Positions 10,165 through 64,000 of a stretch of 64,000 nucleotides of DNA are shown here, piece after piece. Position 1 is the first letter of the stretch; every line of letters begins with the position of its first letter. Location: contig JBANSL010000007.1 in assembly GCA_037127255.1 (NCBI GenBank), forward strand, positions 63,101,038-63,165,037. The letters are read 5' to 3'. The stretch is from Persicaria tinctoria (lineage: Eukaryota; Streptophyta; Magnoliopsida; Caryophyllales; Polygonaceae). A model generated the notes under the pieces. The model saw only the letters and a program-made list of their open reading frames with translations. It was not told the origin of the DNA and made no database searches. The translations under genes and the position numbers were made by a program.

Positions 10165-11711
10165 CTAAGTGATAGCACCCTTATCGCCACTGGCCCTTAG
10201 CCCCTGGAGCTTGTATTGATGTCCCTTGTTGTCGAATATTAGGAACATCTCCTTCCAGTTAGATTGTATAGTATTTAGGGAAGCCAGCCAACCAATTCCA
10301 AGCACCAAGTCTGCTCCAGCAAGAGAGAAAGGAAAGTAATCTTGAGTGATGGTGAGACCCGGCAGCTTGATGTCGATGTCGGGGCACACACCACTGCATT
10401 GAACAACTTCCCCATTGCCAATCCGAACACCGAATGAAGGGACATATTCAACTTGAAGTCGCAGTTCCTTTACCAACTTGTCTGAGATGAAGTTGTCGGT
10501 GGATCCGCTGTCAACTAAGACAAGAATAGGATGTCCCTGTAGGGTTGCCTCGAACTTCAAAGTTGTGCCTGGTGATTTGCCGGATAGGGCACTGAAAGAG
10601 ATCTCAACCATATCCCCTCCGGCTTCCATGGCTTCTTGGACTTCCTCTAGCTGCGAGAAGGTTGATTGTTTGCACCTATGCCCAGGGGTGAACTTCTCTC
10701 CGCAGCGGAAACATAACCCTTTCTCCCATCGGGCTTGTCTTTCGTCTTCCCAGGATTTCGCCGGAGTTGGCAAAGGTTGGTGCAGGCGGCGATTGGAACC
10801 TGGAGGGTTGGATAATTCTGACGGTTGGGCTGTAGGGTTTGTATTTGTACGGGAGGAAGAGGGGATGGAATTGGAGTGCAGGGATGGTGAGGGATTGGGC
10901 CTGTTTTGTGGGTTACTGGGTGGTGGGCTTATATCTGGGCCCTCCTTAGCCTCAAACTCCAACGCCAAACTCACCGCCTTGAAGACAGACCTAGGTTTAT
11001 GAATCCGTACCTCCACCCTCAACGCTTCTTTCAATCCAGCGAGGAAGACGCCAAGCAAACAGTGCTCCGGCCAATCTTGTACACGAGCGGCGCGTCGAGC
11101 AAATTCTTGACGACACTCCGCCACCGTACCAGTCTGTTCTATGGCACACAGGTATTCATGAGGGTTTTGGAATTCCGGTGGGCCGTAGTGTTCCTGGAAC
11201 ACTTTCACCAAGGCTTCCCAATATAAAATTTCTGTATCACCATTGACCCAAGCGTACAGATCAAGAGCATCGCCTTCAAGGTGCATTGAAGCCACTTCAA
11301 CACGGAGTTCGTCGGGAATCTGGAAGTACCGAAAATACTTTTCGGCCTTCAGGACCCAGCCCCGAGGATCTCCGCCTTCAAACTTGGGGAAATCAATTTT
11401 CGCCCGAGGTCGTCGGTTGGTGTGGAAACCTCGGTCGCCTTCTTCTTCCTCTTGACCATCCCACCAACGAGTACGGCCTCGTTCATAAGGGTTTGCACGG
11501 TGGGCATGAGAACCCCCCCCCGATTGGATCCCTCGGGAGTACGACCAGAGAATGGAGTCTCTCTGGTTTGGGCTTTGAGGGCTGCTACTTCGGCCACTAG
11601 CATCTCAATCGTGGCTGCCATTTCTTCGTTTGTAATTTCAGGAGGAGGTGGTGGTGGTGGTGGGGGTGGCGGTGGTGGAGGATTGGTAGCGGAAGAACGT
11701 GTCGTCACCAT
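10165..11711 (-). pseudogene. Gypsy gag-protease reading frame with a frameshift
   Basis: The N-terminal part (11711-11349) begins MVTTRSS, followed by a poly-Pro run and a short coiled-coil-like stretch. A frameshift near 11400-11420 separates it from the rest. The sequence then continues as gag (IDFPKFEGGDPRGWVLKAEK, partly outside the long ORF), the gag core (LEGDALDLYAW), a zinc knuckle CFRCGEKFTPGHRC, and an aspartic protease with VDSGSTDNFI, ending at 10165. Gag packages element RNA and protease processes the polyprotein. No pol domains follow. Because of the frameshift and missing pol, any mobility would need help from another element. Confidence 0.88.
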
Positions 11712-16300: not shown

Positions 16301-18011
16301 ATTATACCCGTAATTTGTTTAGGGATAACGATTTCCAACTGCGATTCACACTTATCTTTTAGGGTTGAGTCTGCTCATTCTGTGTTGAAAAAGACCTTAA
16401 ACTCTGCAGTCGGTGATTTCACTCACGTGATAAACACAATCGATCTCATGATGTCGGATCAAATTTGGGAGGTGAAGAATACATTGGGGAGAGCGAACAA
16501 CACCTGGCCTACAGACTCCCACGACCTATGGATTTTCGACCGAATTCGGAATATTGTGTCCAAGGAATGTTTCAACTTGTTGTTCGAAATCTACACAAAG
16601 ATGGAAGCCGAGCCACCGTCGCAACCATGCAGAGATGCCTATTGGAGGGACGTCTACGGTCTTCCATGCACACATGACATGCAAGCTTGTCGAGACACGC
16701 AGATACCCATCAGACCATCCCAGATACATAATTTTTGGAAGCAATTGGATTTCAAGAGGCCTCATGTGGACAACGTCCAGGATAACACTCCACTCAGCAG
16801 AGCTGATGTGGACATGTCGCGCATGATCAGTTTGTTCCAGAGCGGAGCTATGGACGAGGATACTCATTGGAGAATCGCTTCGGCATTCAACGACGGGGAT
16901 CGTCCGTCCCAGACACCGTTGACCACCCCTGACCCGGAGGACCGTAGACCGCCTGGGAGACCGAGGACTCGCCACCCCTGTCAGACGAACCCTCTACCTT
17001 GGGAACGTGAGCGTGCTCGGGCTCAACGTCAGGCAGATAGACAGGCGACCACTGGATCCGCACGAGGGCGAGGCCGAGGTCGGGGTCAACCCGCATCAAA
17101 CGAAACAGATGACGTGGAAGGTACTGAGGAGGCCACTGGGTCCAACGACATTGCCATCGACGACCCTCCCAGGGGCCGAGGAGTAGGCAGAGGAAGAGGA
17201 CGGGGTCGTGGAAGGGGACGTGGACGAGGTCGAGGTCGATCGGCGTCGGAGCCAGCTCCGGAGATTGTAAGTGACATTCCAACACCAGCACCTACGACGC
17301 TTCCACCACAGAATCTACCTCGAGTAGAATTCAATTGGGGCACTGACAACGTCGACGAATTCATGATTACTTTCGTACGAGCCGTCACAAATGTTGCAGG
17401 TGATGGTCACTGTGGGTATAGGTCTTTAGCTTGTCTTCTCAACTTGGGACAAGACGCATGGCCTCGAGTTCGACGTGAGCTGGCCGTTGAGTTGCAGGTG
17501 CATTCAGATCGGTACCATTACTATCCGGCCTTACAGGAGCTCATCATGAGGGTCAACTATTTCAGCACGTGTCATGATGCTACGTATTGGATGGAGATTC
17601 CGATCATGGGCGAGGTGTTTGCCACGCTTCACCAGCGTCCTTTGGTGATTTTGTCACAGATGATGCCTATGTTATGCCTACCTCTGTACGCCACCGGTGG
17701 CCCGTCAGTACCGGCCTGTGAGGAGCTTGATGGAATAGCTTTAGTCGGCAACAGCAACCATTTCGTTCCGGTACGTTTCGTATTTCATATTCATTAATTT
17801 GTTACTGTTTTGTTTCTCTTTTCTAACATCAATATTAACCTTTTATTCACATATTTGGTTGTTGCCTGGTTCACCTCTTCCTCCAGTCTACGTCACATGG
17901 ACACGGAATCACGATCGCACTGTCGACGGTTGGGACGAGCAGTTTGCAGCGAGGATTGCAAGATATAGAGCTTACCGCCGTCGTGATGGTGGTCGTCCCC
18001 TACCGTATTAG
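13334..18011 (+). CDS. MULE transposase fused to plant mobile domain and OTU protease
   Basis: Proposed exons: 13334-13402, 13489-13560, 13917-15694, 15769-16272, 16363-17770, then a last part up to 18011; all but the last junction keep frame. About residues 445-525 resemble a shortened plant mobile domain (HPETNSFHFAWGEITITLHD). Residues about 540-850 are a MULE DDE transposase: VVLVDSTYRTNA with first Asp, IVTDRELG with second Asp, MLCTVHVLRRC, and NR-VESAHSVLKK rejoined by removing the 90-bp intron 16273-16362. An RGRGRG tract follows. Then comes an OTU cysteine protease segment with VAGDGHCGYRSLA (Asp, Cys) and NSNHFVPV (His). The C-terminal frame LLPGSPLPPVYVTW would need an acceptor at 17858, where the sequence has gg instead of ag, so this last splice may be broken. 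Role: transposition of the MULE; the OTU role is unknown. Confidence 0.82.
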
Positions 18012-20411: not shown

Positions 20412-23400
20412 TTAGTGTGCCTTGAGATCCTTGATGTGCAAGAAATCCCTGCAGAAAACAAACTTGTCAATTGTCACAATTTTAGTTCCAAAATCAGCAG
20501 GGTTTAATTTTCCATCAATTTTCTTAATCAAGAACACCCGTTTATACACTTTATCTCTAATAAAGTGATATCTGACATCTATATGCTTGGTCCTCTCATG
20601 GTAGACAGGATCCTTGCATAAATAGATGGCACTCTGACTGTCCATATGCAATACAGACACATAGTGTTTTCTTTCAATCTCTCTAAGTATACCTTGAAGC
20701 CAGATTGCTTCCTTAGAAGCCTCAACAGCTGCTATATACTCAGCCTCTGTAGAGGACAAAGCCACAATAGCTTGCTGTTGAGTTTTCCAGGAAATGCAGT
20801 TTCCATGCCAAGTATACATATAAGAGGTTGTAGATTTTCTATTGTCTTTATTGCTAGCAAAATCAGAGTCAACATAACCAAGGAGATCAGGTTTAGAGGA
20901 ATGCTTACCATAGACAAGACCATAATCTGAAGTACCTGAAACATATCTCAACAAATATTTCATTGCAAGCCAATGCTTTTCACAAGGATTAGACATGTAT
21001 CTACTCAGGACACTAATAGCAAAAGCTAGATCAGGTCTAGTACAAATCATGGCATACATCAAAGAACCAACAGCAGCATCATAAGGTATAGATTTCATGC
21101 GTAGCTCCTCTTCCTTAGGGAGTGGCATCTTCGTCTTTGTGAGATCAAGATGCCCTCCTAAAGGAATAGGAGAGGCTTTAGCATTCAAAACCTTAAACCT
21201 TTCAAGGACTTTCAGCAGATAGTCCTTTTGGGACAAAAATATCAAATGCTTAGCTCGATCTCTGAAAATTCTCATTCCAAGAATAACCTGAGCAGGGCCC
21301 AAGTCCTTCATGTCAAAGAATTTTCTGAGAGAGCACTTGACAGTTGATATTTTTGCCCTTGATTTGCAGATAATCAAAATATCATCCACATACAGCAACA
21401 CATACATGGGAAAAATAGTATTGACATCTTTCAAGTAAAGGCAAGGATCATATTTGCTAACAACAAAACCAATCTTTTTCATGCTGCAATCAAATTCAAG
21501 ATTCCACTGCCTAGGAGATTGTTTAAGACCATAAATAGACTTCTTAAGCAAACATACATGATCAGGTCTATTTTTGTCAATAAATCCCTTAGGTTGTTTC
21601 ATATAAATTTTTTCATCCAGTTCACCATGTAAGAAAGCAGTTTTAACATCCATTTGTTCTATCTCTAAATCATACACATCAGACATGGACAGCAACAATC
21701 TCATGGTTTTAAACTTAACAACAGGAGCAAACACATCATTATAGTCAATACCTTCCCTTTGAGTGAAGCCCTTGGCAACTAACCTAGCTTTGAATCTAGG
21801 TTGATCACCAGGGCCAACACCATCTTTGAGCTTATAGACCCACTTGCAATCAATGGTCCTTGCCTTTTCAGGCTTGGGAACAAGTTCCCAGGTCCTATTG
21901 ATCTGCAGTGAGTCCATTTCCTCTTTCATAGCAGTAATCCAAGACTTAGCATGAGAGCACTTAACAGCATGTTCATAAAGCTCAGGTGTATAAGCATAAA
22001 GCACTTCAGCAATCATAACACAATATTCAATCTCATTCACATACTTCCTATTAGGTTTCCTCACACGAGGAGACCTATCTCTAGTAAGCTGATAATGTGT
22101 TAAATCAGGAGGCTCATCAACATTAGTATCAACATCAACAGAAGAAGCATCAACAGAAGAAGCATCAGAAACAGAGAACTCAAGAAACTCATCATTATCA
22201 GCTTGAGAAGAGGAGGAGGAGGATGAATGAGATGAGGAAGAATCTGAGTCAGAGTCACTTACTTCCCCACCTGAATGGTGGGGGTGCACATGTGGGTGCT
22301 CTTCAGTACTTGAGTTTGGATTGCTTTGCCCTTGAGAGTTTGAAGCTCCAGGGTGATTTGGTGGTAAGTGACCAATGTCAAACTCATCTCCATCATCTCC
22401 AGAGTCGTTTTCATTCTCACTAGGCATGTAGAAATGATTTCCAGCTTGTTCATGGGTACCTGCATTCTCAACAGAAGAAGTAAGCACATTTTTAAAGTGA
22501 AAATCATTCTCATTAAAGGTTACATTTCTACTGGTTATGACTTTGTAACCACCAGGTTGCACAACCAGTAGCTTATAACCTTTCACCCCTTCTGGATAGC
22601 CTAGCATAACACACTTAAGTGCCCTAGGATTCAGTTTGCCATCACTCACGTGGGCAAATGCAGTGCATCCAAAAGGCCTCAAGTGTGCTAGTCCAGGCTT
22701 CCTACCACACCACAGTTCCTGTGGGGTTTTAAAACCAATAGCAGCAGAGGGTGATCTATTTGTCAGGTATGAGGCAGTTGTGACTGCCTCACCCCAAAGG
22801 GAGTGTTTCATCCCAGCACTAATGAGCATACACCTTGCCTTTTCAAGCAAGGTTCTGTTCATCCTCTCAGCAATGCCATTCTGCTGAGGGGTGCCTGGCA
22901 CAGTGAGGTGCCTTTTGATCCCATTCTGCTGGCAGAAGGTATCAAACTCATGGTTACAAAACTCAAGGCCATTATCAGTTCTAAGACATTTAAGCTTGAA
23001 ATCACACTCACCTTCAACTTTAGATTTCCAGAGCTTAAAGAAATCAAAAGTATCACTCTTGGCCCTCAAGAGGTACACCCAAACCTTCCTGGAATAGTGG
23101 TCTATAAGTGACAAGAAGTACTTCCTGCCACCTATAGTGTCCACCTGGGCAGGTCCCCATAGGTCTGCGTGTACATACTCTAGTTGCCTAAGAGCTACAT
23201 ACTTAGATTTCTTAAAGCCAGTTCTGGATTTCTTACCAAACACACAACTTTCACACAAAGGCAAATCAGAAGGTTTATGATTCAATGAGCCATGCTTGAA
23301 CAGATAATGAAGACCTCTATTGCCTATATGACCTAGTCTAGCATGCCACAGTTTAGTATCACTCAGATTCATGCAAGCATTGATCTCAGGAGACAAGTTA

Positions 23401-24677
23401 TAAGCATGGAAGACAGGTTCACCAAGCACATAATAAAGGCCACCCTTTTTAACACTCTTCAACACAACTTTACCATTTTTAGACACAGATTTAATCCCAT
23501 TTCGAGTGTTAATGTCATAACCAAGGTCATCAAACATGCTGACAGACAACAAGTTTCTCCTAAGGCCAGGCACCCACCTGACATGTTGGAGTACCCTGAC
23601 CCTCCCATCATGCATCTTAAAAGAAACATTACCAATGCCCTTGATGGATAACATGGAGTGATCACCCAATTTAACAGCACCCTCATCAGACAAATGCAAC
23701 TGATTAAAATGATGTTTATAAGGAGTAACATGCATTGTGCAACCAGAATCCAAAATCCAGGCATCAGAATCAGATATATCAGATATATCACACATGAGAA
23801 GTTCATCGGGGTAAAAAGACCGAGACTCTAAGACAGCAGTGGTACCATTATTGTTTCTAGCATTTCCTTCATCCTTTTTCTTTTTAAAGCATTCAGAAAT
23901 GTAATGACCAAGTCTACCACAATAATGACACTTAACATTGCTCTTATCAATCTTAGGTTTAGTCTCATTAGCCTTAGTTTCTCCAGAGTTTGAGTTGGAA
24001 CCAGAATTAGAAGTAGAAGAATCCTCTTTCTTCTTGTTCTTCTTCTTCTGATTCTTACTCTTACCCTTGGTGAACAAAATATCAGATTTGTTATCCTTAT
24101 CACCCTTTCCCTTAAACACTTTTATAACCTCATTTTTCTGTATGATAGACTCAATAATCCTCTTTTTAGTTAATTCCTCTGTTCCAAATTGAATCACATC
24201 TTTAAAATTATCAAATTGAGATGGCAAAGAGTTCAACAAAATAACAGCTTGATGAGTATCAACAATTTTATCATCACATCTTTCTAACTCTTGAGTCATA
24301 CGAAGATACCTATCCAGATTATCATTCAGAGACACAGAGACATCCATTTTGAAATTAAAGATGCGACACAACAAACTTATCCTAGATGGCAGAGACTTAA
24401 CTTGAAACAAATCAGTAAGACCCTTCCACAGAGATTTAGAAGTGGTAAAGCTTATCACTTGCCTAGCAACTTCATCAGACAAACGAATAATAATCTCAGA
24501 ATGAGCAATTTGATCCATTTCAGCTTTAGCCACAGCATCAAGAGAAGCAGGATAAGTTTCATCAACAGCATACCAACATTTTTCTTTAATAAGAACAGCC
24601 TTCATTTTCAATTGCCACATAGCAAAATCAAAGGTCCCATCAAAGGGCTTAATTCTAACAGAGGATTCAGACATCAC
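20412..24677 (-). CDS. Copia gag-pol polyprotein, 1421 aa
   Basis: Single open frame with all copia parts in order. Gag of the UBN2 type starts near the N-terminus (VRIKPFDGTFDFAMWQLKMK). The zinc knuckle is CHYCGRLGHYISEC at about residue 250. Protease has WILDSGCTMHVTP near 308. The integrase zinc region begins HARLGHIGNRG, with the core Asp in ADLWGP and DNGLEF and the Glu after PQQNGIAERMNRT. Reverse transcriptase contains VDVKTAFLHGE-type DVKTAFLHGELDEKIYMKQP and the catalytic YVDDILI. RNase H has GYVDSDFASNKDNRKST and ALSSTEAEYIA. The length is normal for a full copia polyprotein and no stop or frameshift is present. It copies element RNA to DNA and integrates it. The stop lies 9 bp from the 3' LTR. 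Confidence 0.97.
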   Translation of the reverse strand: MMSESSVRIKPFDGTFDFAMWQLKMKAVLIKEKCWYAVDETYPASLDAVAKAEMDQIAHSEIIIRLSDEVARQVISFTTSKSLWKGLTDLFQVKSLPSRISLLCRIFNFKMDVSVSLNDNLDRYLRMTQELERCDDKIVDTHQAVILLNSLPSQFDNFKDVIQFGTEELTKKRIIESIIQKNEVIKVFKGKGDKDNKSDILFTKGKSKNQKKKNKKKEDSSTSNSGSNSNSGETKANETKPKIDKSNVKCHYCGRLGHYISECFKKKKDEGNARNNNGTTAVLESRSFYPDELLMCDISDISDSDAWILDSGCTMHVTPYKHHFNQLHLSDEGAVKLGDHSMLSIKGIGNVSFKMHDGRVRVLQHVRWVPGLRRNLLSVSMFDDLGYDINTRNGIKSVSKNGKVVLKSVKKGGLYYVLGEPVFHAYNLSPEINACMNLSDTKLWHARLGHIGNRGLHYLFKHGSLNHKPSDLPLCESCVFGKKSRTGFKKSKYVALRQLEYVHADLWGPAQVDTIGGRKYFLSLIDHYSRKVWVYLLRAKSDTFDFFKLWKSKVEGECDFKLKCLRTDNGLEFCNHEFDTFCQQNGIKRHLTVPGTPQQNGIAERMNRTLLEKARCMLISAGMKHSLWGEAVTTASYLTNRSPSAAIGFKTPQELWCGRKPGLAHLRPFGCTAFAHVSDGKLNPRALKCVMLGYPEGVKGYKLLVVQPGGYKVITSRNVTFNENDFHFKNVLTSSVENAGTHEQAGNHFYMPSENENDSGDDGDEFDIGHLPPNHPGASNSQGQSNPNSSTEEHPHVHPHHSGGEVSDSDSDSSSSHSSSSSSSQADNDEFLEFSVSDASSVDASSVDVDTNVDEPPDLTHYQLTRDRSPRVRKPNRKYVNEIEYCVMIAEVLYAYTPELYEHAVKCSHAKSWITAMKEEMDSLQINRTWELVPKPEKARTIDCKWVYKLKDGVGPGDQPRFKARLVAKGFTQREGIDYNDVFAPVVKFKTMRLLLSMSDVYDLEIEQMDVKTAFLHGELDEKIYMKQPKGFIDKNRPDHVCLLKKSIYGLKQSPRQWNLEFDCSMKKIGFVVSKYDPCLYLKDVNTIFPMYVLLYVDDILIICKSRAKISTVKCSLRKFFDMKDLGPAQVILGMRIFRDRAKHLIFLSQKDYLLKVLERFKVLNAKASPIPLGGHLDLTKTKMPLPKEEELRMKSIPYDAAVGSLMYAMICTRPDLAFAISVLSRYMSNPCEKHWLAMKYLLRYVSGTSDYGLVYGKHSSKPDLLGYVDSDFASNKDNRKSTTSYMYTWHGNCISWKTQQQAIVALSSTEAEYIAAVEASKEAIWLQGILREIERKHYVSVLHMDSQSAIYLCKDPVYHERTKHIDVRYHFIRDKVYKRVFLIKKIDGKLNPADFGTKIVTIDKFVFCRDFLHIKDLKAH

Positions 24678-25257
24678 AACAGATCTCAGCAGGCAGAGTC
24701 ACAAAGATAATAGCCGGCAAGGCAACAGAAAGCAAAAAATTAAGGGAAAAGCAACAACAAAAGATAAAGGATATGCAAAGGATCTAGTGAATGCCAAAGC
24801 TTTCACAGATCTGTAACAACAGCAACAGATTTTTTTTTTTTTTGTGTACCTGCAAAACAAAGCAACTTAAGTTAGTAATGCAGGAAATAAACAAGAAAAC
24901 AACTAAAAAATGACTTAGGATCTCCTTTAGAGAAAGGAAACCCAAGCCACTCAAAACCCTAAACTTCAGATCCGACTTAGATCCAAGTTTAGGAGCCTTA
25001 ATCCTTTAGATCCAAGACACAGGAAGTCTAAGATCCGCAAGGAATAGGCAGTGTCAATGTAGGTTTCCCAGAAACCGAAGAGACAGGCCTTGAGACTTTA
25101 GATCTGAGACAGATCGTAGCTCAAGGATCCTTATCCTTTGGATCTAGGATAGATTATCCCAGATCTAAGGAAAACAAAGCGTCAAGACTTTAGATCTGAG
25201 TTTTTCGACACAGAAAGTAGTCGGAAACTCAAATCGTAGCTTGAAAAACTCGACACA

Positions 25258-29942: not shown

Positions 29943-31290
<1,348 letters not shown>

Positions 31291-48145: not shown

Positions 48146-50990
48146 ATGGACACTCACCACCGACAAGAGCACACCCGTCCACCGCCGGTTCAACCACCTC
48201 CACCGCTACCTCCAGCCGGTGCTTTCAATTCTTCTCTCCTCACTTTCGCCTTCCTCGGTATCGCCGCTTTCTCTTTGGTTAGTGTCTTTCGCTCGCTCGG
48301 TCCCTCCTTTATCCCTCTCCTGCTAGGGTTAGTTCCTTTGGAATGTAAAACTCTGTATCTGTTTCTGGCTTTGAGATTTTACTCTGTTGGATTCTGTTAT
48401 GATTTCCTTTGTTTCATGTCGATTTTGGCCGTTTGATCAGCATCGATTGATTATTAGGAATTCATCTTTGTCGGATGCGTTCAGCGATCGAATTTCCTTC
48501 GGGTTGTAGGTTGTTATGGACTTGACTGCTCTTTCACTCTTTGCATATCATATTATTGTTGGAAAAATGCAAGATGGTGAATCTTGGGACTGATTAGATT
48601 AGGGATGCCTTGGTTTCTAATTCTAGGTCATGGTGTTTAGTTAAGGGAATACGTTATACGAGTTGATCTGAGAAATGGATTCGGATGACATTGAGTGATT
48701 TTGAATGTTCCCAAACCTACCATCAGCCTTATCCGATTGTTTTCTTGTATGAACAACTTCTTTTGTAGGACTGGATTGTTTGTTGATTTTTCATTTTCCA
48801 TGTTAATGTATGCCTTTTCTGGATAAGCAATGATGTTTCATCTAAACTGGCTTTTATGTATCTTGCCCAGATGTGATATTTGTTTTGCATTTTATGGTTC
48901 CAACTTCTGGTTCCACACAGAACTCCTATCCGCAAGTTCTGATACGCACTGTACTGTTGTCCGATTTTTCCTACTTCCATTCATGCTTGTTTTAAGTCAA
49001 AATGCAGTTAGGGCATCAGTTTAAATTGTCAAAGTTTGTTTTTCGAAACTGAAAATTTGATTTCAAAATATTAATGTGATAGATATCATCTATGTCTCAC
49101 GGTCACAATAGCTGGAGTATTCTGCATCAAGTGCCAGAAGGCCATGTTGGTGTGTACTGGAGTGGTGGCGCCCTTCTTAAGAACATCACTGATCCAGGTA
49201 CACATCTTTGTGCCTTTTTAGGTTTATGCTTGCATCAGGTGTTGTGTTTATAAGACATTCTAAACTTTGGAAATGGTCATTCCATTATAAGGTTTCCACT
49301 GGAAGCTGCCTTTGATAACTCATTTTGAACCCATTCAAGTGACACTTCAAACCGACCAGGTTGATTGACTATCTTCCACTCAATTCACATTACCTAAGCT
49401 GAATGGTGGTTTCGACAAAAAAAAAATGCCAATTTTCTCAATCCACAAAACCTTGCAGGTTCGAGATATTCCATGCGGCACAAAAGGAGGTGTCATGATC
49501 TACTTTACAAGGATTGAGGTCAGCCTTGGAGATTCTAATGCTAGTTTCTGTCTCTTTTTAATTCTAAACCTGTAAAATCTATATCAATGTTAGTTTAACC
49601 CTGGAATTGTTCATTAGGTGGTGAATCGGCTGCGCAAAGATTATGTTTATGAGACACTTCTCAATTATGGTGTTCATTATGATAACGCGTGGATATATGA
49701 CAAGATTCATCACGAGATCAATCAGTTTTGCAGTTCACATACTCTGCAGCAAGTGTACATTGACGTTTTTGATCAGGTAAGTGACAAAACTGGTTGTCCT
49801 ACAATTTGAAGGAGTACTGGTGGAACACAGTACAGATCTAGTCAAACTTAATATCTATAGACTTCTTTGTTATAGCTATTCAGGAAACATCCAACTATTC
49901 CTTCCTGCATTATATTTATGAATGGTGTTTATAGCTTGTGTAAACTGGTTAGTTGAAATGGATTCTTGCTTAGTGGTTTTTTATGAAATTTTGATCCCTT
50001 TTGCTTAATAATTATTTGCACTTCTAATATGAACATTTGCTTTCTTTCATGGCCTCTGCTCTTCCTAATAATTTTGACATGGTGTGATACGGGGTTATTA
50101 TGTATTTAGATTGATGAAATGATGAAAGAAGCTATCCAGAGTGATTGCACTCGTTATGCTCCAGGTATTGAAATAATAGGTGTGCGAGTCACAAAACCTG
50201 TCATCCCTGAGAGTATAAAACGGAATTTTGAACAGATGGAGGAGGAACGAACTAAGGTACTCTTGATTTGTATTGTGGTCTTTTGTCTTATATGTCACTC
50301 TACACCCCACTGCGGTTACTTGATTTGAAATTGAATGTTTTTCAACTATAGCTGCACTTGTTTTAATGGGTAATTGAAAGGCATTGAATTAGTTCTTGAT
50401 TAGAGTTCTGTGGAATATTTAGGTTTTAATAGCTATTGAAAAGCAAAAGGTTGCAGAGAAAGAGGCAGAGACACAAAAAAAGATGGCCATATATGAAGCA
50501 GAGAAGAATGCTAATGTTAGCAAGATCATGATGGAGCAGAAGCTTATGGAGAGAGGAAGCACAAAACGGATGCAGCAGATTGAGAACGAGATTTACCTTG
50601 AACGGGAAAAGAGTCTGGCTGATGCCAATGCCTACAGGTAAGAGCTCCTAAGATATTTTTCTCATGAATGCATATGCTATAGTGACCATAAACTAAAAAT
50701 CTCTTTATATTCCCAGAATGATGAAGGAAGCTGAAGCTAACAAACTTCAGCTAACACCTCAGTACCTCGAGCTCAAATTCATCGAAGCCATTGCTAACAA
50801 TTCAAAAATTTTCTATGGAAATAAGGTATTCTTTAACTTGTAAATCTTCAAGAACCGTCTTCTCCTTCCTATTATGCCTTGTCATCTCATAGCAACCTTC
50901 ATTTTGCAGTTGCCGAATATGATATTTGATCAAAAGTTGCTTGGGAGCTTCTTGCAAGGCTTTGATGCTAGATCAAACTTGGAAAGTTGA
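48146..50990 (+). CDS. ERLIN-type SPFH/Band 7 protein, 361 aa, intact
   Basis: Nine exons with GT-AG borders: 48146-48277, 49083-49197, 49292-49359, 49459-49518, 49618-49776, 50110-50256, 50423-50637, 50717-50825, 50910-50990; all phases fit. The protein has a Pro-rich start, one membrane anchor (about 30-44, [15 protein letters not shown]), an SPFH domain (about 57-235: [63 protein letters not shown]) and an Ala/Glu/Lys-rich helical region (about 220-310) before the conserved [14 protein letters not shown] and a short tail. ERLINs form ring-like oligomers in sterol-rich ER membrane; in animals they act in ER-associated degradation, in plants the role is less clear. The first intron border is supported by its conservation in the second copy. 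Confidence 0.93.
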
Positions 50991-51414
50991 ATTCGCTTCG
51001 TCGGTGTCACTTTCACGTTGGTTGGTAGCTCATACACTTTGGACACCGGAGAGTATTTTGCAGATTAGCATACCATGTTTCTATTTCCAGTGACCCTTCC
51101 CTTTCTTCATGTTCTTGGCATATACAGAGATGATAGTAGATGACCAGAGATGCAGAACCCTTGGTAAATGAGGGAGAACAGCTGCAAGACAACTTTTTGT
51201 TGAATTGGTTTCATTTTTTGATTCGTTTGTCTTCAGTGAAAATGTTGATTTGTTTTTGCTGTATGTTTGCTGACTTCAAAAATAAAACCTGCTGTGTTTC
51301 AATTCTGACACTGAAGATTGGATTTTTTGTGGTGTTGATGTTTACCACCCTGTAATATATAACATTAGGGTACTACGTACAGTGTTGAGGACCTTATGCT
51401 TTTGAAGTCAAAAA

Positions 51415-51486
51415 GGGCATTTGGTCTAGTGGTATGATTCTCGCTTAGGGTGCGAGAGGTCCCGAGTTCAATTCTCGGAATGCCCC
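51415..51486 (+). tRNA. tRNA-Pro (AGG)
   Basis: 72 nt fold into a full cloverleaf. The acceptor stem is gggcatt/aatgccc, the anticodon stem ctcgc/gcgag encloses loop ttagggt with anticodon AGG at 51447-51449, and the T arm is ccgag-ttcaatt-ctcgg. No intron. A T-run about 20 bp downstream (around 51504) fits a Pol III terminator. It lies between ERLIN copy 1 and the ureide permease. Confidence 0.97.
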
Positions 51487-51499
51487 TCATTTCATCTCA

Positions 51500-52401
51500 A
51501 ATGTTTTTTAATTATCTCTCTCTTTCAGTTTTATTTACATGGGATAGAAAGACTGAAAGAGCGTTGTTTAGATGTTAGAAATAAAATGGGGTTGTTGACT
51601 AGTTCAAGTTGTAGAGGCGTAGTATTTGAAAATGGGGATCTCTGACGATCTTGGCCAAAGATCTCCATCCACCAAGATTATTGAGCCTTTTTTCTTTGAC
51701 TTTTCCCCTTTTCCTCTCATTCATTAACAGCTCAAATACCAAAGGCACTAGCTTTGATTTCATTAAGAAAATTAATTTCTTCCCTTTACATCGTATTAGC
51801 AATTGAATTTGATTTGGTAATCATATCATATCTACTCTGTAATTCTTTGCTTCTGGCGATTAAGCTATTGGCGGAGTAAAGGTGTCGCTTTTCCGTTTTG
51901 TCTGGACTTGTTGACTTTAATGCATTATCTAGTCAACGTTTAGTTCCCTCCCCTTCTTGGATGCCTACCATTTTAGACTTTTCAGTATTTTTCATTTTGG
52001 AAATATTTATTGCTATTTATTTTATTACGTGCAAGATAGATCCCGTTGCAGGATCTTTTTTATTCTTCAGCTGAATCCCTACAATTCCTCTAAAGATTCA
52101 GCTGCCACTTTTATGGGATACTGCCAACTCAAGTTGGTCGACGTTTTGATTCACAGAAAAGGTAATTGCAAATCAGTGGTTTCTTTTGATCACAATTGAT
52201 ATGTGTACTCTCTCTCTTTTAGAATGAAATTGGGTTATTCACTTATTGTTATGAATTATGATTCAATTGATCTCAACTCTCAAGCAGTTCTGGACCTTCT
52301 GATACACAATTCCGTGGTGTCTGTTGATCTCCGTATCGATTTCAAACAATATTAATGGCTTGTGTGCAGGTTTATAGATCAGCAAGAATCTTCGCCTTGG
52401 G
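51500..52401. other. Upstream region of the ureide permease gene
   Basis: A probable 5' leader exon ends at about 52160 (cagaaaag|gtaatt) and splices to gtgtgcag|gtttatag at about 52370, placing a 210-bp intron just before the start codon. This is inferred from splice-site signals only. Confidence 0.45.
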
Positions 52402-52407
52402 TTGAAG

Positions 52408-54065
52408 ATGTATGTGGTGGAGAGCAAGGGAGGAGCAATAGCATGTATGCTGCTTTCTCTCTTGTTCTTGGGCACCTGGCCTGCTGTTATGACTCTGCTC
52501 GAAAGGCGGGGCCGCCTCCCTCAACACACTTACCTTGATTACTCAATCACAAATCTCCTGGCTGCTGTGATCATAGCCTTGACCTTTGGTCAGATTGGAG
52601 ACAGCAAACCCGGGATGCCAAACTTCTTCACTCAGCTCACTCAGGTGATCTGTCCTCTTTACAGTTACATCCATGTCGCGTTGTAACTGGAGTCGTTGCC
52701 TTGTAGTTTAGTTGATCAGTTATTAGGAGTTTGACATGTGTGCTACTACTGCAGGATAATTGGCCCTCGGTTATTTTTGCCATGGCAGGCGGTATTGTTC
52801 TGAGTCTTGGAAATCTATCGACTCAGTATGCGTGGGCTTTTGTTGGCCTATCGGTTGTAGAGGTGATCACTTCAAGCATCACAGTTGTAATCGGTATTAG
52901 TCCTCTCCATCACCTTGCCCTTGTATCGGTATGTGTTCTTTCATTGACGACACATTTATTCTTACTTTCTATAGGCACCACATTGAACTATTTCCTGGAT
53001 GACAAAATAAACAATGCCAAGATTCTATTCCCTGGTGTCGCGTGCTTCCTGATTGCAGTTTGCCTTGGTTCCGTTGTGCATTCATCCAATTCAGCTGATA
53101 ACAGGGTGAAACTCAATACCCTAAAGAGTGGCTTCAAAGACGGTGGAATGTATATCCAACTTGGTTACCTTAAATCACTTGCAAAAATTCGATAAGCACT
53201 TTTTCCCCTGATAAGGACATCAAAGTTCACACTCATTCTATCATTGATATTTGTGTTGACAGCAATATTAAGAAAGATGTAGAGAATGGAAGTGTGACTT
53301 CGTCCAAGGCAGAATTCGGGACTGCAGGTTTCCTCATTGAAGTTGAGGAGAGAAGATCCATAAAAGTATACAATCTAACTCCCTAGCGAATCTTAATGGA
53401 TATACGGCTTCCTTATTTTTTCTGTTTCTATATTTGGGCATGGTGAATGGCAGGTGTTTGGCAGGAACACTTGGATAGGGCTAGCAATAACCTTCTTCGC
53501 AGGTGGATGCTTCTCGTTGTTCTCTCCAGCGTTCAACTTGGCTACAAATGATCAGTGGCACCTCCTGAAAGAAGGGGTCCCTCATTTGGTGGTTTACACT
53601 GCTTTTTTCTACTTCTCTGTCTCCTGTTTTGTGATTGCTGTCATCTTGAACATCAGCTTCCTTTACCGCCCTGTCCTGAACCTACCAAAGTCGTCATTCA
53701 AAGCATACCTCATGGACTGGAATGGAAGAGGCTGGGCCTTCTTGGCTGGTTTCCTCTGTGGGTTTGGCAACGGACTTCAGTTCATGGGCGGTCAGGCGGC
53801 TGGCTATGCCGCAGCTGATGCTGTTCAGGTTGAGCTTCATCAATTCGGTTCATTCTACTTACATGTTCAGATGTTGCTTATTTGATCTTGTTTTCATTTT
53901 GAATTGAACCAGGCACTGCCACTTGTGAGCACATTCTGGGGAATATTGATATTCGGAGAATATAGGAAATCTTCGAGAAGAACATACATATTACTTGTAG
54001 GCATGCTATTTATGTTCATTGTTGCTGTTGGGGTTCTCATGGCCTCCTCGGGACATAGGAAATGA
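52408..54065 (+). CDS. Ureide permease (UPS family), 393 aa, intact
   Basis: Six exons: 52408-52644, 52755-52893, 52975-53149, 53263-53365, 53454-53828, 53913-54065, with all phases consistent. The start MYVVESKGGAIACM is the conserved family N-terminus. Family blocks: RRGRLPQHTYLDYSITNLL, GGIVLSLGNLSTQYAW, ITVVIG-TTLNYFLDD, ILFPGVACFLIAVC, a charged cytosolic loop (DVENGSVTSSKAEFGTAG), SLFSPAFNLATNDQWH, FLCGFGNGLQFMGGQAAGYA and the C-terminal MASSGHRK. About ten membrane segments are expected. UPS proteins carry allantoin and nucleobases such as uracil across membranes. Exon 3 reads past its donor into a stop if unspliced, so the 53150 donor is needed. Confidence 0.95.
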
Positions 54066-54579: not shown

Positions 54580-55017
54580 TTAGACAGTTAACGCCATAGG
54601 GTGTTGGTCCGGCTGCCCCGGCCCATCATGTGTAACCATAAAACAGTGGAGCCTCCAAATAAAAAGGAGTCCTAAGAGAGCAAGTATGATATCTTTGACG
54701 GAAACCTCTGAGGGCGCATCTTCCGATGGAGACGGTGCCGGGGAAGCTTCATCGGTCGGCAGGGAAGCGGAGGGCGGGTGGTGGTGCGCATCTTCCGATG
54801 GAGACGGTGCTGGAGGAGCTCCATCGGTCGGCGGGGAAGCGGAGGGCTGGTGGTGGGATCGGTGCCATGATGCGTCGACACCGCCGCCGGAGAAGGTGTC
54901 GTGAGCGTTGATCCACCCTCCGCTGCGGTATCCTCCGACGGTGGCCGCCATTGCGAGAAGGAGGATTAGACAACCTATCCTACATACACTAACACTATCG
55001 AATGACCCCGGCGACAT
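54580..55017 (-). CDS. Possible AGP-like secreted protein, 145 aa
   Basis: Unbroken frame with a hydrophobic N-terminal segment (CLILLLAMAATVGG) like a signal peptide or anchor, and a Pro/Ser/Ala-rich middle with two copies of a unit PSAS-PTD-PAPSPSEDA. A hydrophobic C-terminal helix (DIILALLGLLFIWRL) follows, then a polar tail. The PAP/SPS pattern is typical of arabinogalactan proteins, which are cell-surface glycoproteins, but the tail after the helix is unlike a GPI signal. No intron. I am unsure that it is expressed; the repeat could be a recent DNA duplication. Confidence 0.5.
   Translation of the reverse strand: MSPGSFDSVSVCRIGCLILLLAMAATVGGYRSGGWINAHDTFSGGGVDASWHRSHHQPSASPPTDGAPPAPSPSEDAHHHPPSASLPTDEASPAPSPSEDAPSEVSVKDIILALLGLLFIWRLHCFMVTHDGPGQPDQHPMALTV
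54715..54845. repeat. 66-bp tandem repeat in the AGP-like ORF
   Basis: Two head-to-tail copies of gcgcatcttccgatggagac... with a few substitutions, encoding the duplicated Pro-rich unit. Confidence 0.75.
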
Positions 55018-55129
55018 TGCAGAGTGCCGTTACAATTCAATTGAAAACAAAAACAAAAGAGGTGATTTACCTCTCATGAATCTTAGCGCTACTGTGAGTG
55101 TTGCCCTTTGTTGTTGACCTCATCGCTTC

Positions 55130-57376: not shown

Positions 57377-57572
57377 CAGGGGCGGATCCTGGACCGTCAT
57401 TCCAGAGATACTTGAAGATAAAAATTTTATCATTCCGAGAATGTTTAAGGGTAAAAAAAAATTTCTTTTGTAATTTTTTCCCCGGATTGGGGATGTTTGA
57501 CGGAAAATATTAAGAAATTAACACTAAAAAAAAAAAAAAATTTGGGGATGCTTGCAAGTAGATCCGCCCCTG
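57377..57572. mobile_element. hAT-type MITE (196 bp), second copy
   Basis: Ends caggggcggatcc / gatccgcccctg and an exact 8-bp target duplication ttcttgag (57369-57376, 57573-57580). Inverted relative to 2428-2630. Inserted six bases after the LINE stop codon. Confidence 0.88.
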
Positions 57573-57580
57573 TTCTTGAG

Positions 57581-58232
57581 GACACCCGAATTCTTACCTA
57601 ATAAAAAAAAAATTAAGGGTGTTTTTTCCATAATATATTAGTTATAATGCAAGTATTTTATCTCGATTTATATGATTATTTAGTTAAATTACTCAATTTT
57701 TACGAGATTTTTAATTGTACAACCAAAATGTTCACATAAACTAAGGTTATATAATTGCAATCATATGCAATGGAATCCAAACACACCCTTAAAGTAAGGT
57801 GGTTTCAGGTTCAGATGATACTGGTTTTGATTTATTTTGGGCTTGGCTTGATGTTAATTGTTAAACTCGTTTATTTGGGTATATAAACAGGTTTGTGTCA
57901 ATTTTGGGTTCTTTTAGGGTACTAGCTTAAAAAGCAATTCGAATATAGGTTAGGTACAGTGATGGAGCTGAGGATAGGAAGGAATTGGATAACTTATGAC
58001 CTTTGCACTCCTCCATGTATCCCATCCTCTAAAAAATTAGAACTACGGAGTAGAACTGATCCAGTAATTATTACACGTGAGGTGAAACCCCCCCTCGTGA
58101 AGGAAGCAACAGTTAAGCGGCCTTTGAGCTTCTGTGGACTCCTTTAAATTCAAATCCAACGATACCCTTCACTCCCAACTTCAAAACAAAGGGATAAGAA
58201 AGAGGAGAGATCAATTCAATTTTAATTTGAAG
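57581..58232. other. Spacer, nothing recognised
   Basis: AT-rich to 57950; the last part may be the leader of the following ORF. Confidence 0.35.
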
Positions 58233-58633
58233 ATGGGGGGTTTCCAAAGCAACGAATCCAACAATGGTGAGGCCAAGGGAAATGGGATGCTAGCATGGCT
58301 GACAAGTGCAATGCGTTCCCTATTTTCAGACGGGACTGGAATGGGTTCTACGTACATTCAATCCAATCGGGCTACGAGGCTGTTAAAGAATGGGTTGCAA
58401 GTGCACTCCTCCGACTCCTGATATCTGCTTTTACAAGGGGCCTAGAATGGGTTTACAATCAACTTCAATCTGCTTACAAGGCGGTGATGGAGTACCTCCA
58501 ACTGCTTCGTCTTTCTGCGAACAAGACAGTGAGTGCATGGCTTGACCGGCTGTTTCATTCTGGTTCCGATTCTGATTCCGATTCAAAGGGAGTGCGTGTG
58601 TACACTTGCCATTTTCCGAGGAGCATTACTTAA
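58233..58633 (+). pseudogene. Short Trp/Leu-repeat protein, probably frameshifted
   Basis: Starts at 58233 with MGGFQSNESNNGEAKGNGML. The frame closes at 58421, but from about 58340 another frame (ORF from 58295) carries the interesting part: SGYEAVKEWVASALLRLLI, SAFTRGLEWVYNQLQ, SAYKAVMEYLQLLRL, SANKTVSAWLDRLFH, then an Asp/Ser tail ending at 58633. These four blocks are units of a 15-19-residue repeat that also forms the C-terminal array of the gene at 60207-63328. A one-step frameshift between the two parts, near a GLEWV codon run, would explain the break. I know no family with this repeat. Confidence 0.45.
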
Positions 58634-60206
58634 CGATATGGGGTTGGAATATCATCACCTAGATTAAGATTGAAGTTTATGTAACTGTCACCACTAGGCA
58701 GTGACTCTAGCTACTTAATTATATAATTATCCGTATGACTTATATGTATTAAGATGCATATGTACCTTGCGTCTGTCCTATCAGCTGATCGATCAGGTGG
58801 ATGTAGTCATATATTGTGTTGGGAGTTAGGATTCGTGTCACCATGTGCGTGGCTTGTTTTGGTCATGGTTAGTCCAACGGGTTGCTGGTGTTTTGGTATT
58901 TTTGCTTCTTGAATATATGCAAGGTGATAAATTCCCTCTTTTGTTATGCTATGTACTTGTATAGTTATGGTCTCTAATTGAATTGCAAGCCCTGCACACT
59001 CATTCCAACACATGCCCATGAATCTTAGATCAAACATATTCCACCATTTCAGTTGTGGCACCAACAACATGCAATCGCAATTCCCAATATGGGTGAAGCC
59101 TTTCATTCTTTAGATTTAACATACCCATGTCCATGAATGATGGATATAAACGGTATCAAACTTTAGTTCTTATGATGGATATGCCCCAGCCAGATCTGGA
59201 TTAATATGCCAGCTAGTAGAGATACAAACATTGCTTGCGCGCAGGGCTCGTTTTTGTTGGGGCATTTTACTTTATTCTTAATTGCCAAATATATATAAAG
59301 TTGTTTTTAAAAAACCTATATAGACATATGTCACGTACATGGCAATTTGTACATTTGTGAGGGGGTTGTGGATTCTTGAACATACATGTCGATCAGTTAG
59401 GTTTCTTAAACCCTGAACTTGAGAATTTGACTCTCAATCCATAAATCCATACATGTATTTGACTTGGATCTTGGATCGTTATATTTTTGAGTCGGTCGGC
59501 TCATAAATCATAATTCAAAAAAGGAACGTTACCTACAAGCTGGCTACAAACTAGATTCTAACATACTAGAGTAATTAGCATGTATGATAGTGTTAACAAA
59601 ATTCATGAGAGATAACTAGTGAATTAAAACAAAAACTTAAAACTAGTCACGATATATGGTGGAGCATATGATAATTTATAAATTGAGCAATTTGTAGAAA
59701 TGAAACAAGTAATGTTAATACGATAATAAAAAATAAGATTTTGAAATATGTGATCTTCATTTATGAAAAAATGACTTTTGTGAATATTAAATGTTGCTTC
59801 AACGATTTTATATTTAACCCGCCTCAAACCAATTTGGTTCAACGATTCCAAATGATCACCGGATGTCTAGATCCATAACGACGTAGTGAGTATCCACAAT
59901 TTAATTATTTTCGCTATATCGAGATTGTTATTTTTTTTAAAGTTTTAACTAACTTCTATATACTTATATTTATATATTTATAAAATTTTATCATAATAAG
60001 TCAATTTCTGAAAAATTTTAGTTGATTAATAGATAGATTATTTTAGAAAAATATTTTTTTATAAGTCAATTTATCATGATCAAGTTTTATAAAAATATAA
60101 ATCCATCAAAAAGTGATGCACGCGCAGAGCCTTCGAAACCGATCACTACGAACTCTCGAAAATTGAAAACGAGGAGCGCTAGACACACACCGCCACCGCC
60201 ACCGCC
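58634..60206. other. Spacer with duplicated permease flank
   Basis: About 58960-59115 matches the downstream flank of the permease gene (ttgaattgcaag ... gtgaagcctttcattcttta). The rest is AT-rich. The last 90 bp resemble the leader of ERLIN copy 1. Confidence 0.55.
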
Positions 60207-63200
60207 ATGTCAAGTTGGACACTCACCAGAGTCCACCGGCAAAAGCAATGGCGTCCGCCGCTACCTCCAGCCGGTGCTTTCAACTTCTCACTCCTCGCTT
60301 TCGTCTATTTCGTTATCATCGCCGCCGCTTTCTCTTTGGTTAGTGTCTTTCGCTCGCTCGGACTCTCCCTTCTCCCCCTCTACTGCTAGGGCTGATTCCT
60401 TTGGAATGTAACACTCTGCCGTCGTTTCTATCTGTTAAGTTTTAATCTTTTGGATGCTATTACGATTTTTTTATTTGTTCCATGTCGAATTTTGACCGTT
60501 TGACTAGCATCTACCGGTAATTGGAGATTCATCTTCATCGTATGAGTTCAACGATCGATTTTACTTCGGATTGTGTGTCCTTGTGACTCGATTCTTCCTG
60601 GTGCTGAAATAATGGTTTAGTAGGACATTTAAGTGATTTTGAAATTTTCAAACCCTGCCATCGGCCTTGTGTGATTGTTTCTTGTACGAACAGCTTCTTT
60701 TTGCGCGTTTTAATTTGCATTCAAAGGAATGGATTGTATTCCACACATTGTTGATTTTTCAGTCCCCGTGTTAATTTTAGAGGCTTTTATTGCTTATTAT
60801 TCGTTTCCTAGTTTCGCAATAAATGCTTCTTCTAAAGTGACTTGTATTGCTTGTTTTTATGGTTCCACACACAACTCCTATCTGCAAGTTCTTTTCTACT
60901 TCCATTCAAGCTTGTTTTTCAATAATCAATGTTTGTTTTTCCAAACTTAAAATCTGACTTCAATATGTTAATAGATATCATCTATGTCTCACGGTCATAA
61001 GAGCTGGAGTATTCTGCATCAAGTGCCCGACGGCCATGTTGGTGTGTACTGGAGTGGTGGCGTCCTTCAAAAGAACGTCACTGATCCAGGTACATTGTTG
61101 TTCCTTTTTCGGTTTATAGTTGTATCTGGTTTTCTATGTTTAAGATATTCTAAACTTTAGCAAATGGTCATTGCATTGTAAGGTTTCCATTGGAAGCTGC
61201 CTTTGATAACTCGTTATGAACCCGTTCAAGTGACACTTCATACAGACCAGGTTCGTTGAGACATTGACTATCTTCGATTTGATTCAGACAAATTTGCTCA
61301 ATTTTCCTACACATGCAGGTTCGAGATATTCCATGTGTCACAAAAGGGGGTGTCATGATCTACTTTACAAGTATAGAGGTTAGGCTTGGACATTTTGATG
61401 CTAATCTGTGTTATTTATATACTATAACCTCACTAACCTGTATAATGCTATGCTACTTTACCCAGCCTCAACCTCTTCCTTACTGTTCTTTTTCCATTAT
61501 GGTATCAACAATCATCTGCATCACGATTCGTTTTAACCCTGGAATTGTCCATTAGGTGGTGAATCGGCTGCGCAAAGATTATGTTTATGAGGCACTTCTC
61601 AATCATGGTGTTCATTATGATAACGCTTGGATATATGACAAAATTCATCATGGGATCACGAAGTTTTGCAGTTCACATACCCTGCAGCAAGTGTACATTG
61701 ACATGTTTGACCAGGTAAGTTGCAAATTTGGTTGTCCTAGAACTTGAAGGAGTTCTGTTGAAATACAGAGGAGATGTAGTCAAACGTAAGACCTGCAGAC
61801 TTCTATATTAAAGTTATTTGTGGAAAATCCCTCTATTCCTTCTTGCATAATATTTGTAAATGGTGTTTATAGCTTGTATAAATTCATTAGTGAAAATGCA
61901 TTTGACAGTATGAACTTATTATTTTTTTTTATCATGAATGAATGGCCAATGATTTTCCTATTGTGTATGCCTATTAGGTAGGATTTCTTCTTCATGGTTT
62001 TTACGAATTTTGATGCCTTCTGCCTACAACATGTATTTTCACTTATATAGATCTTTGCTCTCTTTCCTCTGCTCCTCCCGATAAAAGTTATTTGCTTGGT
62101 TTGATAAGGGGTAATTATGTGTAGATTGATGAAATGATGAAAGAAGCTATTCAGGGTGACTGCACTCATTACGCTCCTGGTATTGAAATAATTAGTGTGC
62201 GAGTTTCAAGACCTGTCATCCCTGAGAGTATAAGACGGAATTTTGAACAAATGGAGGAGGAACGCACTAAGGTACTCTTGGATTGTAATGTATTATAACT
62301 TTTGCCTTACATTTCACACCAGTGTTTACTCAACTTGCAACAAAGAGGCCTGAATGTATACTCAATTGTTGTTTTTTTCCGGAAATTCATGCTTTATGCA
62401 ACATTCGATTTGTAGCAAATTTTTCACAACTATAATGGCACTTGTTTTAATGGGCCATTGAGATTGTTTTGATGAAGATGAATCAGTTCTTGATTAAACA
62501 TCTATGTAATTTTAGGTTTTGATAGCTATTGAAAAGCAAAAGGTTGCAGAGATGGAGGCGGAGACACAAAAGAAGATGGCCATACATGAAGCAGAGAAGA
62601 ATGCTAATGTTAGCAAGATCATGATGGAGCTGAAGCTTATTGAGAGAGAAAGCCTAAGGAGGATGCAAGAGATTGAGAACGAGATTTACCTTGAACAGGA
62701 AAAGATGTGGGGTTGCCAAGTGTCCAAGACATGGCTAGAATGGGTTCAACTTCAACTAGTTTCTGCTTACAAGACAGTGATGGTTTGGCTTGAACATGGG
62801 CTACGTTTGCTGATATCAGGTTGTAAGACAGGGCTGGAATGGGGCGAATGGGTTCAACTTCAACTAGTTTCTGCTTATAAGACAGTGATGGTTTGGCTTG
62901 AACATGGGCTACGTTTGCTAATATCGGGTTGTAAGACAGGGCTGGAATGGGGCGAATGGGTTCAACTTCAACTAGTTTCTGCTTATAAGACAGTGATGGT
63001 TTGGCTTGAACATGGGCTACGTTTGCTGATATCAGGTTGTAAGACAGGGCTGGAATGGGACCAATGGGTTCAACTTCGACTAGCTTCGGCTTATAAGACA
63101 GTGATGGTGTGGCTTGAACCTCGACTGCATTACCTGATATCAGACTGTAAGACGGTGTTAGAATGGGTTCAACTTCAGCTTGTTTATGCATATAAGTCAG

Positions 63201-63328
63201 TGATTGTGTGGCATGCACGTGGATTATGTTCCCTGATATCAGTTTGTAAGACACTGCTGGAATGGGTTCAAATGTTCAACCTCAACTTGTTCCCTAATAT
63301 CAGGTTCAACGTGAACTATGGTCCCTGA
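60207..63328 (+). CDS. Chimeric ERLIN copy with a C-terminal Trp/Leu-repeat array, 497 aa
   Basis: Seven exons in the same layout as ERLIN copy 1: 60207-60338, 60975-61089, 61183-61250, 61319-61378, 61556-61714, 62125-62271, 62516-63328; exons 1-6 have the same lengths as in copy 1 and all junctions keep frame. Residues 1-290 match copy 1 (membrane anchor, SPFH domain, helix up to EIYLEQEK). There, mid-exon, the sequence changes to MWGCQVSKTWLEW and then to repeats: three nearly identical 36-residue units (SAYKTVMVWLEHGLRLLI + SGCKTGLEWGEWVQLQLV) and two diverged 33-residue units. Each unit is two halves with the S-x-x-K-T pattern. Lost are the [10 protein letters not shown] region and tail of ERLIN. 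A changed residue IPCVTKGG (copy 1 IPCGTKGG) is noted. SPFH oligomerisation may persist; the array's function is unknown. Confidence 0.82.
62741..63268 (+). repeat. Coding tandem repeats, 108 bp x 3 plus 99 bp x 2
   Basis: The anchor tgggttcaac recurs at 62741, 62849, 62957, 63065, 63164 and 63263, giving periods of 108, 108, 108, 99 and 99 bp. The first three units differ at only a few bases; later ones are diverged. Confidence 0.93.
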
Positions 63329-63549
63329 TATCAGGTTGTAAGAAAGGGCTGGAAAGGTTCAACCTCAACTTGTTTCAGCTGAAAAGACAATGATGGCCTG
63401 TCTAGAACGGCTTTGTCTATCTTCTCTTACAACTTATAAGACATCGATGGCATGGCTTAAACTGTCGTTTCATTCTGATCTTGATTTGGATGAACTTAAC
63501 CTGCTGCAATGTTTTGAGGGATTGCCATTACCAGAGAACCTGAAGTGTT
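63300..63549 (+). pseudogene. Further repeat units and tail beyond the stop
   Basis: After the stop at 63326-63328 the array continues in another frame: LWSLISGCKKGLE, then LVSAEKTMMACLERLCLS, TTYKTSMAWLKLSFH and an acidic tail ending at 63549. A frameshift near 63290 appears to have cut the array short, so an earlier version of this gene was longer. The tail order (repeat, FHS, Asp-rich end) parallels 58233-58633. Confidence 0.65.
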
Positions 63550-64000
63550 GATAACTGACTGCTAGCTAGTACTAGTCTTGTGAATCCCTGCTTGTTTATT
63601 TTTTTTTAGGTTTAATATTTTAGAAATTGTAGTGGCTGTGTGAAGATGATCACCTGTTTTTATTTTTTCAGTGCATACCTGAACTGCACGTAGTCAATGA
63701 CTCAATGTATAGCACAAGTTGGGATTTTTTTTTTTTAAATCTGTTTGTTCATGTCTCATTTTGATTTTCGTCTCTGTCGATTGGCTTAACTGTATCTAGT
63801 CAATGATGGAAAGTTAGGATCTTTGCATCAGTTTATACGTGGCTGATGCAATCTCATGGTCTTTTGCATATTTTTGCTTTGTTGGTTCATGTTATTCCAA
63901 CAAAATAAACAATCCTTCCTTTATTATGATCATTTGTATTTCTCACATTGAATTTTCCCTCCTTTTCAGAAATTATGTTTGAATAGGGCTTGCATTAACC
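63550..64000. other. Downstream region, nothing recognised
   Basis: T-rich DNA; no gene or RNA recognised up to the window end. Confidence 0.4.

Follow-up and report, generated by a model that had tools for sequence, protein, structure and literature searches.

The window, a stretch of 64,000 nucleotides of Persicaria tinctoria DNA analysed as a whole, contains a second copy of a plant ERLIN gene that runs in frame into a Trp/Leu-rich tandem repeat. With a probability of roughly 60%, this gene is a locally formed, partly decayed chimeric duplicate of ERLIN carrying a repeat tail. Less than 15 kb separates the junction from the ERLIN parent and from a gene related to the repeat parent, both of them upstream, and the coordinates of all parts are collected in the table.

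Coordinates of the two ERLIN copies, the junction, the repeat tail and its relative in the window
Feature	Position	Strand	Evidence or description
ERLIN copy 1, complete	48146-50990	+	9 coding exons, 361 residues; splice model and translation
ERLIN copy 1, exons 1-5	48146-48277, 49083-49197, 49292-49359, 49459-49518, 49618-49776	+	
ERLIN copy 1, exons 6-9	50110-50256, 50423-50637, 50717-50825, 50910-50990	+	
Separate small gene, or remnant of one, related to the repeat tail	58233-58634	+	tblastn E 7e-7 to 5e-6; 80% over 49 nt
ERLIN copy 2 (chimera)	60207-63328	+	7 coding exons, 497 residues
ERLIN copy 2, exons 1-6	60207-60338, 60975-61089, 61183-61250, 61319-61378, 61556-61714, 62125-62271	+	
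ERLIN copy 2, exon 7 portion before the junction (most of coiled coil 1)	62516-62704	+	end of alignment to copy 1
Junction AAGATGTGGGGTTGCCAA	62702-62719	+	2 mismatches against 58230-58247, the region around the ATG of the small gene
Five tandem units (108, 108, 108, 99, 99 bp) in the ERLIN frame	62738-63266	+	Tandem Repeats Finder score 729; unit comparison
Beginning of the damaged sixth unit, and TGA 63326-63328 ending the chimeric frame	63267-63328	+	
Remaining repeats, in a different frame with 69 open residues at 63342-63551	63329-63551	+	

Two ERLIN copies and the junction in exon 7

ERLIN copy 1 is a complete gene, and its best plant ERLIN matches reach about 75-82% identity. Copy 2 is 84% identical to copy 1 across 281 columns; its spliced protein matches Band_7 (PF01145) in Pfam at E 3.8e-25, and with an SPFH/Band_7 domain of erlin sequence it belongs to the erlin (SPFH) family. 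Each of the six introns is bordered by GT-AG in the two copies alike, and exons 1-6 have the same lengths in the two (132, 115, 68, 60, 159 and 147 nt), as an earlier note on this DNA had stated. For exon 1 the agreement in length is coincidental, since indels are needed to align this exon with that of copy 1 and the start ATG differs. The introns of the two copies are homologous, with a divergence of 0.205 at 1303 aligned sites when gaps are excluded, and the duplication therefore took place at the DNA level and was not a retrocopy. The 5' flanks of the copies gave a local score of 45, against 51 for the best of 200 shuffles. A tree was built from 24 rows, comprising both copies and 22 proteins chosen from the 120 listed matches, with P0004, the top-scoring match of copy 1, left out. 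In it the two copies are sisters (SH-aLRT 98), and two Rumex salicifolius proteins join them (99), so that the duplication postdates the split from Rumex as far as the tree rows go; the placement would suit a plant of the Caryophyllales.

Homology to copy 1 ends inside exon 7. ERLIN identity stops at residue 290 (EIYLEQEK), at window position 62704, which corresponds to copy 1 position 50611, 26 nt short of the end of its exon 7. An in-frame ATG follows directly, and the chimeric frame is open through the junction to its TGA, giving 497 residues of which 207 lie past the junction. The switch from EIYLEQEK into repeats without stop or frameshift, as described in the earlier note, was thus recovered. 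So was the loss of the conserved ERLIN tail: copy 2 lacks the last 71 residues of copy 1, comprising the end of coiled coil 1 (CC1), CC2, the AIANNSK linker, the LPNMI motif and the tail. When the 3' end of copy 1 (50561-51800) was compared with 62601-64000 by blastn, only the 45 nt before the junction matched, the other hits being chance ones (E at least 0.74); a normal ERLIN 3' end, sought downstream of the junction, is absent from the remaining 1.3 kb of the window, which ends at 64000.

The sequence at the junction resembles the start of the small repeat gene. The 18 bases surrounding the ATG of that gene have the junction as their sole other match when both strands of the 64 kb are scanned at up to 3 mismatches, where 0.15 matches are expected by chance. 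The junction assignment rests mainly on this window-wide mismatch scan rather than on shuffle tests, in which the local alignment score of 26 was reached by 8 of 5000 dinucleotide shuffles (largest 32) and by 0 of 500 plain shuffles. The first 16 bases of the small gene agree at 13 or more positions with three of the 2511 ATG sites counted over both strands, namely its own, that of the junction and one other. Copy 1, the chimera and the small repeat gene have AAGA in common at the junction, an overlap that would be compatible with end joining through short homology. Since the one other match of the ATG region of the small gene falls right on the junction, ERLIN exon 7 appears to have been joined via about four shared bases to the start codon of a repeat-gene copy.

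The surroundings of the two copies include several other features. A tRNA-Pro (AGG) at 51415-51486 lies between ERLIN copy 1 and a ureide permease gene at 52716-53885, the latter matching PF07168 in two open frames (E 8.6e-50 and 1.8e-72). Two Hibiscus proteins among the listed ERLIN matches (P0072 and P0093) carry Band_7 together with PF07168, and ERLIN and ureide permease may therefore be old neighbours that annotation sometimes merges. A 149-codon open frame on the minus strand (54580-55029) encodes a doubled Pro/Ser-rich segment of the PSASPPTDGAPPAPSPSEDA type and has no Pfam match. Further upstream, a Copia-type retrotransposon polyprotein occupies 20412-24698 on the minus strand (RVT_2, E 1.4e-66); it is probably a recent insertion, since the polyprotein stands in a single open frame of 1428 codons. 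Retrotransposon Gag and aspartic protease domains (PF08284 and PF03732) were found at 10165-11604 on the minus strand, and a subtilase gene piece (PF00082, E 9.2e-13) at 30463-30846. Two long open frames of 596 and 693 codons lie at 13908-17797, the second, which was the one scanned, with a MULE transposase domain (E 3.5e-16) and, by eye, an OTU-protease-like stretch (GDGHCGYRSL).

Repeat tail and the neighbouring small gene

The tail of the chimera consists of 207 residues of Trp/Leu-rich repeats, 36 or 33 residues long. Over their first 96 positions, units 1-3 show 1 to 3 pairwise differences, each of them synonymous, and units 4 and 5 differ from unit 1 at 18 and 19 positions over the same 96 nt. 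Of the three forward frames across the repeats, only that of ERLIN has no stops; the pooled pN/pS of the five units (first 96 nt each) is 0.40 in this frame against 1.35 and 0.85 in the other two. Because the absence of stops and the synonymous bias are found in this frame alone, the units were probably translated in it for part of their history, either before or after the fusion. The repeats continue past the stop in another frame to 63551, and the stop of the chimera therefore comes after a loss of frame within the repeats. A splice over the damaged unit 6 (63246-63378, with a GTAAGA donor) would restore the frame; it is uninformative, as 28 GT-AG pairs there do likewise.

Self-comparison gave peaks at 36, 18, 33 and 15 residues for the tail and at 30 and 15 residues for the small gene, which indicates repeat units composed of 15- to 18-residue pieces. 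The highest helical moments (100 degrees) are 0.47 for the tail and 0.59 for the small gene. A single-sequence AlphaFold model of exon 7 is nearly all helix, at a mean pLDDT of 48.7 and below 50 across most of the tail, which is too low to use. Eleven inverted pairs, many of them A/T runs, were found in 57400-64000 in a search for terminal inverted repeats, and none flanks the tail, its downstream side being cut at the window end.

The small repeat gene sits 1.6 kb upstream of the chimera and has both the repeats and the start region in common with the tail, which makes the tail a member of the same small repeat family. Its ATG frame (MGGFQSNESNN...) differs from its repeat frame, and the gene is therefore frameshifted, spliced or started at a later ATG; ten GT-AG pairs are able to connect the two frames. 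The end of its translated sequence is Ser-Asp-rich. In a first alignment of the two 3' ends, 31 of 500 shuffles were as good, which is not significant alone. The upstream flanks of the small gene and the chimera reached a local score of 27 against 44 for the best shuffle, and the borderline score of the downstream flanks of the small gene and the tail (57 against a best shuffle of 54) was left unused.

Relatives were also sought outside the window. The tail had no match at E ≤10 in a set of 5.8 billion proteins that includes sequences assembled from reads, none of them recognisable as RNA of this plant (7997 candidates sharing most words), and neither did an alignment of a composite small-gene sequence with tail pieces (647 candidates); in both searches the word-based picking of candidates misses relatives without a common 5-residue word. 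In Pfam, the tail gave no match above the cut-offs and the small gene none at all; in the PDB, the tail had no match at E ≤1. The repeat domain, called unknown in the earlier note, indeed found no match in the databases searched, but it is not unique in the window. A search with the whole chimera gave 764 proteins at E ≤0.001, and the listing covers 120 of them. None of these 120 carries the tail, the maximum query coverage being 61% against 58% for the ERLIN part. The top-scoring match, Nyssa sinensis F0562_033849 (P0001; 568 residues, E 6e-209), was considered as a second chimera and rejected, as its sequence consists of two consecutive ERLIN halves with no repeat tail. With coverage at 61% or below and a double ERLIN at the top, no second chimera is present among the listed matches. 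In the titles and abstract beginnings of the open-licence papers listed, no ERLIN fusion of this kind was found.

Weakened constraint on the second copy

The comparison of dN and dS with copy 1, proposed earlier as a check, was run over exons 2-7 up to the junction and gave dN 0.062, dS 0.218 and a ratio of 0.283. Relaxation of copy 2 was seen at 144 conserved columns, defined as those in which 95% or more of 114 listed ERLINs agree, all 330-400 residues long (6 of the 120 were dropped for length). Copy 2 departs at 15 of these columns and copy 1 at 1 (copy 2 alone 14, copy 1 alone 0, both 1), and each of the 114 relatives, compared with the rest, departs at 0 to 7. The 114 proteins had been gathered with the chimera as query, which brings no bias toward this result. 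Among columns where the two copies differ, the commoner residue is in copy 1 at 30 and in copy 2 at 15, with one tie, so that copy 1 has also changed. The end branches of the tree measure 0.29 for copy 2 and 0.058 for copy 1, the ERLIN part of copy 2 having evolved about five times faster. If dS is split evenly, their own dN/dS ratios would be estimated near 0.47 for copy 2 and near 0.10 for copy 1.

When neutral change was simulated starting from copy 1 and half of the divergence was given to copy 2, a mean of 30 of 143 columns (exons 2-7) changed, against the 15 observed; 0 of 5000 runs ended at 15 changes or fewer, and 268 of 5000 were free of stops. With one third of the divergence on copy 2, 181 of 5000 runs ended at 15 or fewer and 594 of 5000 had no stop. 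The 15 departures are thus high against the relatives and low against neutrality, and the ERLIN part of copy 2 is accordingly relaxed yet was constrained for part of its life, a period that may predate or postdate the fusion.

Origin, alternatives and the erlin cage

The proposed model begins with a local duplication, at the DNA level, that covered the 5' two thirds of a plant ERLIN gene. Exon 7 of the duplicate would have become fused, through about four bases common to both sides (AAGA), with another small repeat gene, related to the neighbouring one, at the start codon of the latter's kin. The outcome would be a chimeric gene of ERLIN exons 1-6, most of exon 7 and an in-frame repeat tail, on which constraint later weakened, leaving what is most likely a partly decayed, dispensable duplicate. 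The earlier idea of a local duplication joining an SPFH platform to a repeat protein gains from the homologous introns, from the repeat relative next door and from its start-codon sequence at the junction. Its extension to a new ER-membrane chimera falters where a working protein is meant, given the faster ERLIN part and the early loss of the repeat frame. Counted against decay are the 497-residue frame without a stop and the conserved-column changes being fewer than under neutrality; on the rate evidence, a decaying duplicate nonetheless seems likelier than a new working protein. Chimeric genes of Drosophila yakuba formed by tandem duplication, as described in PMC5460883, likewise arose by partial duplication ending within a gene and joined to other local sequence, although those are animal genes and the present case is a plant one.

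The alternatives differ in what they make of the open frame and of the junction. A working, lineage-specific chimera, with the repeats as a new lumenal membrane- or partner-binding part of the erlin ring and both halves under selection, is unlikely. The frame open across the junction, an ERLIN part changed less than neutral and the synonymous bias of the repeat units in the fused frame (pN/pS 0.40) would fit it, but the rapid and unusual changes at conserved columns, the long branch, the frame loss in unit 6 and the absence of parts required for human erlin assembly argue against it, and the repeat bias may predate the fusion. A shade more doubtful is the related view that an orphan repeat protein, lacking relatives in the protein searches, was captured at its start codon by the ERLIN duplicate and now would form a new lumenal, perhaps membrane-active end of the erlin ring; on this view a young protein fusion would have been caught after its formation and before its loss or adoption. 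The junction falling on the ATG of the repeat gene, and the one-in-three odds of a common frame, would also suit two adjacent units, in which a truncated ERLIN pseudogene precedes a repeat gene translated from its own ATG at 62705 and the frames match by chance. This is improbable, as no 5' leader or promoter of the small gene stands before the ATG, the homology to copy 1 reaches the ATG, and the repeat gene loses its frame too.

An insertion of repeats into ERLIN exon 7, with exons 8-9 past the window end and transcripts that might splice over the insert, is no more probable. The window closes 449 nt past the last repeat (63551), which is in its favour, but in copy 1 the 380 nt after the break contain the end of exon 7 as well as exons 8-9, and nothing similar occurs in 62601-64000; the last 26 nt of exon 7 and the donor are absent at the break, and there are no clear inverted repeats. 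Least probable of all, and very much so, is an assembly error arising where a near-identical tandem repeat adjoins a duplicated gene. Units 1-3 are nearly identical, a setting in which assemblies can fail, but misassembly usually breaks within long identical sequence, and the join lies outside these units, at a start codon, where the parents share only about four bases.

With the partly decayed duplicate as the preferred reading, its predicted product can be compared with known erlins. Relative to a plant erlin (erlin-2-B-like; Band_7/SPFH, PF01145), the chimera keeps the N-terminal hydrophobic helix, the SPFH domains and most of coiled coil 1, and the 207 repeat residues stand in place of the last 71 residues of copy 1. 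In the human Erlin-1/Erlin-2 complex (PDB 9vvj, 9o9u and others), residues 53-293 of the chimera align with Erlin-2 at E 7.7e-80, and the cage-closing CC2, beta-9 and IPNMF region have no counterpart in the chimera. By eye, AIANNSK and LPNMI of copy 1 match the human AIASNSK linker and IPNMF. Copy 2 is without CC2, the AIASNSK linker, beta-9 and the IPNMF C-terminus that are required for the closed cage, and by these parts it does not belong among cage-closing erlins. In PMC12624060, CC2 and the IPNMF stretch are described as important in the assembly of human erlins, the motif as essential to the cage. The product, if made, would be an ER-anchored subunit of SPFH domains and coiled coil 1 whose cage-closing end (CC2, beta-9 and the C-terminal motif) has been swapped for a Trp/Leu-rich repeat, predicted to be lumenal and probably helical. 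Because SPFH and most of CC1 are kept and the remainder is lost, the chimeric subunit alone would most likely be unable to close an erlin cage; it would at most be a cap-less member of copy 1 complexes, and it might join copy 1 rings and weaken them.

If expressed, the chimera would be a naturally occurring cap-less erlin, on which the regions required for assembly could be tested. Even if silent, it is a clean case of a chimeric gene joined at the start codon of one parent, in which the sequence tells how a fusion gene was born.
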